Part shown: positions 18,681-19,951 of the stretch, in pieces
Layout of the letters: every line of letters begins with the position of its first letter
Numbering within the stretch: the first letter of the stretch is position 1
Origin: Lishizhenia sp.
GTDB lineage: Bacteria; Bacteroidota; Bacteroidia; Flavobacteriales_D; Crocinitomicaceae
Assembly: GCA_007117055.1 (NCBI GenBank)
Contig: SKHH01000282.1
Coordinates: 1-35,058 of the forward strand
DNA length: 35,058 nucleotides
Direction of reading: 5' to 3'
Notes under the pieces: generated by a model
Seen by the model: only the letters and a program-made list of their open reading frames with translations
Told to the model about the DNA's origin: nothing
The model's database searches: none
Made by a program: the position numbers and the translations under genes

Positions 18681-19106
18681 ATGAAGAAAATAGGATTAGT
18701 GATTATTTCAATTTTGACCCTTACTTTTGTTAAGGCTCAAGAAATGAATTGTTTTGAACGTTTAGAAAGTGGATTTAAGGAAAGGGGAGCTTATACGGTT
18801 TCAGATGATATTCACCGAAATGTGATTGTTGTATTTTTTGAAGATGACGATACATTTTGTGTTAAGGGTAAGGCAAGAGTAGAAAACGGTACAATTTCTT
18901 CCATTTTTATCTATTATGATGACAACACCTCTGAATTGTTTGACAAGAAATTTTATAATCAGAAGAAACAAGCTCCAACTATTTCAAACGGAATTTCTGA
19001 AATGATTATTACATCTGATAATGAAAAATTAAAAGTGGTATTCGTTGATAAAATTAAACCAAGGAAAAAACAGTTTAAGAAAGCAATTATCCCAGACGAT
19101 TTTTAG
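18681..19106 (+). CDS. Small secreted protein of unknown function
   Basis: Not recognised. The track ORF starts at 18615, but the promoter lies inside that extension and MKKIGLVIISILTLTFVKAQ at 18681 is a textbook signal peptide, so I start there: 141 residues, mature about 121. The mature part has two Cys residues (NCFERLE and DTFCVKG), beta-strand-like segments (NVIVVFFEDDDTF, ISSIFIYYDD, KLKVVFVDKI) and a basic C-terminal patch (KPRKKQFKK). It is probably a small periplasmic or secreted beta-rich protein. It stands alone and is closed by a terminator. Confidence 0.7.
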   Translation: MKKIGLVIISILTLTFVKAQEMNCFERLESGFKERGAYTVSDDIHRNVIVVFFEDDDTFCVKGKARVENGTISSIFIYYDDNTSELFDKKFYNQKKQAPTISNGISEMIITSDNEKLKVVFVDKIKPRKKQFKKAIIPDDF

Positions 19107-19130
19107 TCATTTGGTAAATAACACTATTTG

Positions 19131-19157
19131 AAAGCTCCAATTTTTGGGGCTTTTTTT
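19131..19157 (+). terminator. Rho-independent terminator after the small secreted protein gene
   Basis: Stem AAAGCTCC / GGGGCTTT (8 bp with one G-T pair), 7-base loop AATTTTT, followed by a run of Ts (7 Ts counted from 19151, the first three within the stem). Starts 24 bases after the stop codon. Confidence 0.8.
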
Positions 19158-19180
19158 ATTATAAAATTTGGGTTGCCAAG

Positions 19181-19356
19181 CTAAGTCGCAAAATTGTCTG
19201 AAATGACAACATTTGTAAACATTGGGTGAAATTTGATGCTTACTATAAGTATTCTTTTATTCATTCTTAACAAAGGACGTCGTCCTTCGTTTTCCTATTA
19301 TAACTCCGCCATAGCAGTCGGACAGGCTTACAGTGTGACACACTTTTGCGACCTAA
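19181..19356. mobile_element. MITE-like element (168 bp) with terminal inverted repeats and 4-bp target duplication
   Basis: GTCGCAAAA at 19185-19193 is exactly inverted as TTTTGCGAC at 19344-19352; extended inwards, 15 of the outer 19 positions agree. Both ends are flanked by CTAA (19181-19184 and 19353-19356), a likely target-site duplication. The interior has no ORF of note and holds a central palindrome AAGGACG-T-CGTCCTT (19273-19287) and GTGTG-A-CACAC near the right end. This is the pattern of a non-autonomous transposon. A CTAA duplication would suit an IS5-type (YTAR target) or another 4-bp-duplicating family; no transposase is in the window. It lies between a terminator and the msrB promoter, so it breaks no gene. 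Confidence 0.6.
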
Positions 19357-19504
19357 ATAGGTAACCCATTAGAAAATAAGAAGTAGATGTATTTATTATT
19401 TTTCACAACCTTCAATCTTTACTATTACGGTTAATTAAAAGGGATACTAAATTCCGCACATGAATACAAGCCCCTATTTCTCTTTCCTTTTTCAGAACAC
19501 TCAT

Positions 19505-19570: not shown

Positions 19571-19951
19571 ATGAAAGAACATCTGTCTCAGTATAATGAA
19601 CTCAATAATGATGAAAAATACGTCATATTACAAAAGGGAACTGAACGACCATTTACAGGTAAGTACAATGACCATAAAGAGAAAGGAACGTATGTTTGTA
19701 AGCAGTGTGATACTCCTTTGTATCAATCTAAAGATAAATTTTCTTCGGGTTGTGGATGGCCTTCTTTTGATGATGAAATCCCGGGTGCGGTTGAACGAGT
19801 TAGGGATAGAGATGGCAGAAGGGTAGAGATAATTTGTGCTAACTGCAAAGGGCACTTAGGTCATGTTTTTAAGGGGGAACAATTTACAGCTAAGAATACT
19901 AGGCATTGCGTTAACTCAATTTCGTTGAGATTTATTCCTAGTAAGGGTTGA
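19571..19951 (+). CDS. msrB: Peptide methionine-(R)-S-oxide reductase
   Basis: Reduces the R epimer of methionine sulfoxide in proteins. 126 residues, a single MsrB domain without signal peptide, so cytoplasmic. Two CxxC zinc pairs are visible (CKQC at 43-46, CANC at 89-92), plus SSGCGWPSFDD with Cys61, GHLGHVF, and the catalytic RHCVNSISLRF with Cys113 (RYCINSASL in most homologues). The conserved KGTERPFTGKY opens the domain at residues 22-31. The gene stands alone, ends in a terminator shared with the convergent OmpA-type gene, and has a MITE-like element upstream. ORFs 19596-19826 (+) and 19628-19855 (-) are shadows. Confidence 0.96.
   Translation: MKEHLSQYNELNNDEKYVILQKGTERPFTGKYNDHKEKGTYVCKQCDTPLYQSKDKFSSGCGWPSFDDEIPGAVERVRDRDGRRVEIICANCKGHLGHVFKGEQFTAKNTRHCVNSISLRFIPSKG

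Follow-up and report, generated by a model that had tools for sequence, protein, structure and literature searches.

Insertion sequences of the IS1595 family duplicate 8 bp of target DNA. The paper describing this family (Siguier, Gagnevin and Chandler 2009) is cited in PMC3281130. Y1 elements, according to PMC2817692, generate no target duplications of such a kind. Y1 subclass 1.2, characterized by WQ and YIKNQKEHH, occurs in Cyanobacteria and Bacteroidetes and is listed without REPs (PMC6006769), and Bacteroidetes are among the hosts of CGTC-tagged repeats for which no dedicated transposase is described (PMC3733652). We analysed a 202-bp element in a 35,058-nt stretch of Lishizhenia sp. DNA, referred to here as the window. 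The element is very probably a non-autonomous IS1595-family mini-transposon (MITE), because it shares its ends with intact IS1595 elements and is associated with 8-bp duplications. It is a mosaic, in which IS1595-type ends enclose an interior made up of a hairpin cluster.

Results

Boundaries and terminal repeats

The element is located between an upstream gene, whose stop codon lies at 19106, and an msrB-type gene (SelR domain) that starts at 19571. The features of the region are as follows.

19130..19154, + strand: hairpin resembling a terminator, belonging to the upstream gene; the element follows immediately after its T-rich tail
19160..19167: left copy of the 8-bp target duplication, TATAAAAT (7/8 against the right copy)
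19168..19369: whole mini-transposon, 202 bp, delimited from about 20 further own-genome copies and the copy alignment
19168..19193, + strand: left terminal inverted repeat, IS1595 type, TTGGGTTGCCAAGCTAAGTCGCAAAA; the same ends occur on intact IS1595 elements
19194..19209: hairpin 1, degenerate in the window, GTCCTGAAAGGAC in other copies
19215..19243: hairpin 2, GTAAACATTGGGTGAAATTTGATGCTTAC, degenerate; GTAAACATTGGGTGAAACCCGATGTTTAC in other copies
19249..19250: junction at which hairpin 3 of most copies (AGTCCCGAAA..CCTAGG..TTTCGGGACT) is missing
19269..19291: hairpin 4, holding the central palindrome; conserved among copies
19344..19369, − strand: right terminal inverted repeat, ATGGGTTACCTATTTAGGTCGCAAAA as read on the − strand
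19370..19377: right copy of the 8-bp target duplication, TAGAAAAT (8-bp peak, 22 elements)

The terminal repeats are about 25 bp long (TGGGTTGCCAAGCTAAGTCGCAAAA against TGGGTTACCTATTTAGGTCGCAAAA). The best 25-mer matches at 20 of 25 positions, a value reached in 0/300 shuffles of the region, which gave at most 16. The arms of the inverted repeat span 29 nt, are 79% complementary, and extend outward through CTAA to TGGGTT/AACCCA (19169-19368). An earlier note on this DNA, made from the letters alone, had described 9-bp ends flanked by a CTAA duplication, with a palindrome in the centre and no ORF. All of its strings are present: GTCGCAAAA at 19185-19193 and TTTTGCGAC at 19344-19352, CTAA at 19181-19184 and 19353-19356, and the palindrome AAGGACGTCGTCCTT at 19273-19287. 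There is indeed no ORF of at least 60 aa between 19107 and 19570. The boundaries drawn there were too tight, as the inverted repeat continues outward to 19168 and 19369. In other copies, CTAA is found again at these positions within both ends and is therefore terminal-repeat sequence; as a target duplication it is ruled out.

Copies in the genome and internal hairpins

A BLASTN search with the region identified about 20 further core loci in its own genome, a 1.97-Mb draft of 79.7% completeness, with E-values down to 6e-44. The copy set was confirmed with a longer copy as the query, and one congeneric genome contains three core copies. The earlier note had named a single-copy sequence, conserved at this locus in relatives, as evidence against mobility; the element is multi-copy, and with terminal repeats, target duplication and no ORF its description as MITE-like holds. 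Within what was searched, the copy family is an undescribed, genuine and fairly ordinary mobile element.

The window copy is among the shorter ones, most copies having an extra long and perfect hairpin 3. RNAalifold retained hairpins 2, 3 and 4 over the copies; four pairs, all of them in hairpin 3, have both partners substituted in some copies, with a negligible covariation term. Hairpin 2 has its loop in either of two orientations, GGGTGAAACCC and GGGTTTCACCC (copies C175, C209 and C92 versus C25 and C143), a pattern that suggests repeated inversion of the palindrome by template switching. Template switching, rather than selection, may keep the hairpin arms matched. The hairpins may also act as weak terminators. 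No outward promoter of the Bacteroidetes type (TTTG-N17-20-TAnnTTTG) was found in or adjoining the window element. The element had no match in a plasmid collection, and the hairpin 1 pattern, the hairpin 2 pattern and the Y1 protein had none among viral contigs.

Target-site duplication

Duplication length was determined by setting the terminus one base outside TGGG/CCCA and comparing the flanks of 22 different elements. At a length of 8, 153 of 176 flank positions agree, against a mean of 82 in shuffled pairings (0/20,000), and agreement is near background at lengths of 6, 7, 9 and 10. The seven own-genome copies by themselves give 41/56 matches at 8 bp (20/20,000 shuffles). Two own-genome copies have poor 8-bp duplications (C19, 4/8; C175, 3/8), and the duplication of the window element itself has one mismatch. 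The duplications of all three intact IS1595 elements described below are perfect. A 10-bp duplication for window-type ends, read by eye, was dropped, as the length scan peaks at 8 alone. Before insertion, the site would have held the 8-mer once, with ..TTTATTATAAAAT running straight into AAGAAG... BLASTN and TBLASTN searches over about 0.77 Mb of the congener's genome gave no usable orthologous junction, the congener being too diverged.

Ends shared with intact IS1595 elements

The end pattern TGGGTTACCAANNTARGTCGCAAAA was searched with up to three mismatches in 240 genomes of Crocinitomicaceae, with the reversed pattern as the control. Matches were found in 13 of the 240, the control giving isolated single matches at most; in the own genome there were 16 matches and none in the control. 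In one genome (G045), a pair of end matches 1.02 kb apart encloses a single ORF, the product of which is an IS1595-family transposase (NF033547, 141 bits, cut-off 75; PF12762 and PF12760 over their cut-offs). Two intact relatives, likewise about 1 kb long, were found, one 58% identical and with the same ends (G015), the other 53% identical and with the variant end AGGGTTACGCA (G072). These elements supply the family name that the earlier note had left open. Its expectation of a partner insertion sequence holds in part: such partners exist in other genera of the bacterial family, and none was found in the own genome. No IS1595 transposase was found in either Lishizhenia genome, that is, in the own draft (79.7% complete) or in the congener, which may be due to loss or to non-assembly in draft genomes. 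A search for a PF01609-type partner in the own genome was likewise negative.

Another genus (g7; loci L163, L167, L176, L177, L180 and L188) has a separate MITE, about 320-330 bp long and well conserved, whose ends are of the same IS1595 type; it is present in several copies per genome, with duplications of 7/8 or 8/8.

Origin of the hairpin core

The closest match to the core outside Lishizhenia was found in another Crocinitomicaceae genus (G003), where it occurs twice. The hairpins there comprise GTCCTGAAAGGAC, then ..CATCGGGTGACACCCGATG.. and, farther along, an equivalent of hairpin 4 containing CTTACAGGGTG; neither IS1595 nor ISAs1 ends adjoin them at the one occurrence inspected. At one G003 site, the hairpins immediately adjoin an IS200/IS605-like Y1 gene fragment at its 3' end (PF01797, 24.1 bits, cut-off 23). 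A Persicobacter plasmid carries a full Y1 homologue with three hairpins, arranged in the same way, on each side, and the Y1 homologue of a Bernardetia plasmid has four palindromes upstream; these palindrome numbers were reached by 0/100 shuffles. The motif of the Y1 protein, WQ ... YITNQKEHH, agrees with that of subclass 1.2 (PMC6006769). The comparison covers three systems, of which one is represented by a gene fragment, with hairpin clusters, well above the level obtained by shuffling, at the following positions.

L304 1-480: Y1-associated hairpin cluster, G003
L303 8560-8994: Y1-associated hairpin cluster, G003
L329 790-1520: Y1-associated hairpin cluster, Persicobacter plasmid
L330 700-1410: Y1-associated hairpin cluster, Bernardetia plasmid

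Because of these three sets of clusters and the subclass 1.2 motif, we favour reading the core as cargo, namely a palindrome cluster from a Y1 system, and not as a shrunken IS1595 element. More tentatively, the cluster could have arisen as flanking repeats of Y1 subclass 1.2 that were packaged by two unrelated DDE families, IS1595 and ISAs1.

In G003, homologous hairpins lie close to the remnant of a Y1 gene and have neither IS1595 nor ISAs1 ends next to them. This arrangement, together with the analogous clusters in the two plasmids, would also be expected if the whole element were REP-like or REPIN-like, spread by a Y1 (RAYT-type) transposase and inverted at its ends only incidentally. However, 8-bp duplications abut the window ends, a kind that Y1 elements do not produce according to PMC2817692, and the examined flanks of the Lishizhenia hairpin copies contain no Y1 gene. 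We therefore consider this explanation of the window element very unlikely.

Sister copies with ISAs1-type ends

The same hairpin core is found in several sister copies that end in CAGGGCAAACGCATTTA, an ISAs1-type end that is frequent across the bacterial family. In G072, ends of this type bracket an intact 1.25-kb insertion sequence with an ISAs1 transposase (NF033564, E=3e-123), of which no relatives were detectable in the two Lishizhenia genomes. Elements ending in CAGGGCAAACGCATTTA have 10-bp duplications (149/190 matches versus 63 shuffled). Such copies and the intact G072 element speak for the window element being an ISAs1-family MITE as well, moved by the same type of transposase. This is likewise very unlikely: the CAGGG end is missing on both sides of the window copy, the window ends match IS1595 elements, and the duplication associated with this type of end peaks at 8 and not at 10, which refutes the explanation for the window copy.

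One copy combines both types. C169 aligns over both of its ends with the ISAs1-type MITE C201 (residues 1-129 and 351-401); between them lies the hairpin core, 92% identical to that of the IS1595-ended copy C256, and a relic of the TTGGAGTTACCAAGCT end is also present. The simplest reading of this alignment is that one MITE was nested in another and that the inner ends were subsequently lost.

ISAs1-type MITEs without the hairpin core also occur. They range from 57 to 291 bp, have CAGGGCAAACGCATTTA ends and lie on own-genome (G000) contigs C89, C201, C220, C140 and C144; L042, L049/L069, L051, L055 and L057 are core-free loci of this kind and include a 57-bp minimal element. A 2.6-kb element with ISAs1-type ends (L135 564-3178, G066:C16) resembles an ISAs1 copy broken by a transposase gene on the opposite strand that appears IS256-like by eye. 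Several contigs of the congener (G001; L139, L140, L142 and L144) break 260-330 bp inside an ISAs1-type element, and longer repeated elements are therefore absent from the assembly.

A non-mobile element serving the msrB-type gene as a conserved cis-acting RNA or terminator is least likely of all: the hairpins are strong, the element lies upstream of that gene and one terminator-like site lies inside it, but about 20 copies adjoin unrelated genes and target duplications are present, a dispersal with duplications that refutes this reading, all Rfam matches are below the gathering score, and the folding energy is ordinary (z −1.65, DNA parameters).

Discussion

If the window element is an IS1595-family MITE, the Zn-ribbon/DDE transposase of an IS1595 element would have bound its TTGGGTTACCAA-type ends in trans. 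The source element would since have been lost from the genome, or would be missing in the draft. Insertion probably occurred into AT-rich intergenic DNA, between the terminator of one gene and the upstream region of the next, the msrB-type gene. The hairpin core appears to have become nested in ISAs1-ended MITEs as well, which would have given some copies a second set of ends. As neither genome of the genus has yielded an IS1595 transposase, mobilisation in Lishizhenia itself is something we infer.

The assignment explains about 20 unannotated intergenic repeats of one genome. Beyond Lishizhenia, MITEs in many Crocinitomicaceae genera are marked by the two types of end, TTGGGTTACCAA (IS1595) and CAGGGCAAACGCATTTA (ISAs1), and the combination of one core with exchangeable ends clearly exemplifies mosaic MITE formation in nature. 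Palindrome clusters beside Y1 transposases that were thought to lack them turn the spread of non-GTAG palindromes into a testable question. If the proposed origin of the core is correct, bacterial MITEs could be built modularly from foreign palindromes, besides arising by deletion of a parent insertion sequence, and Bacteroidota palindromes reported without a dedicated transposase may once have had one.

The core is connected with REP/RAYT and IS200/IS605-like Y1 systems (PMC6006769, PMC2817692) and with the CGTC-tagged palindromes of PMC3733652 by its homologous or analogous hairpin clusters, which adjoin Y1 genes in G003, Persicobacter and Bernardetia. In contrast to REP/RAYT systems, a GT(A/G)G tag is absent 0-2 nt 5' of hairpins 1 and 2, and in Lishizhenia every hairpin set observed belonged to or accompanied a DDE-type MITE copy; moreover, the Y1 subclass that the G003 fragment resembles is the one listed without REPs (PMC6006769). 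ISAs1-type MITEs are linked to the window element by the sister copies that hold the same hairpin core, whereas the window copy has neither their CAGGGCAAACGCATTTA ends nor their 10-bp duplication. MITEAba12 (PMC6382973) is similar in being small and free of ORFs, in having the ends of a co-resident or related insertion sequence, and in its AT-rich duplications; it differs in that these are 9 bp long, against 8 bp here, and in that ISAba12 is co-resident, whereas the genome of the window gave no partner. The closest resemblance is to IS1595 insertion sequences and the MITEs derived from them, with which the window element shares its terminal repeats, 8-bp duplications, lack of an ORF and multi-copy occurrence. 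It differs from those MITEs in its interior, a palindrome cluster that bears no sign of IS1595 origin.
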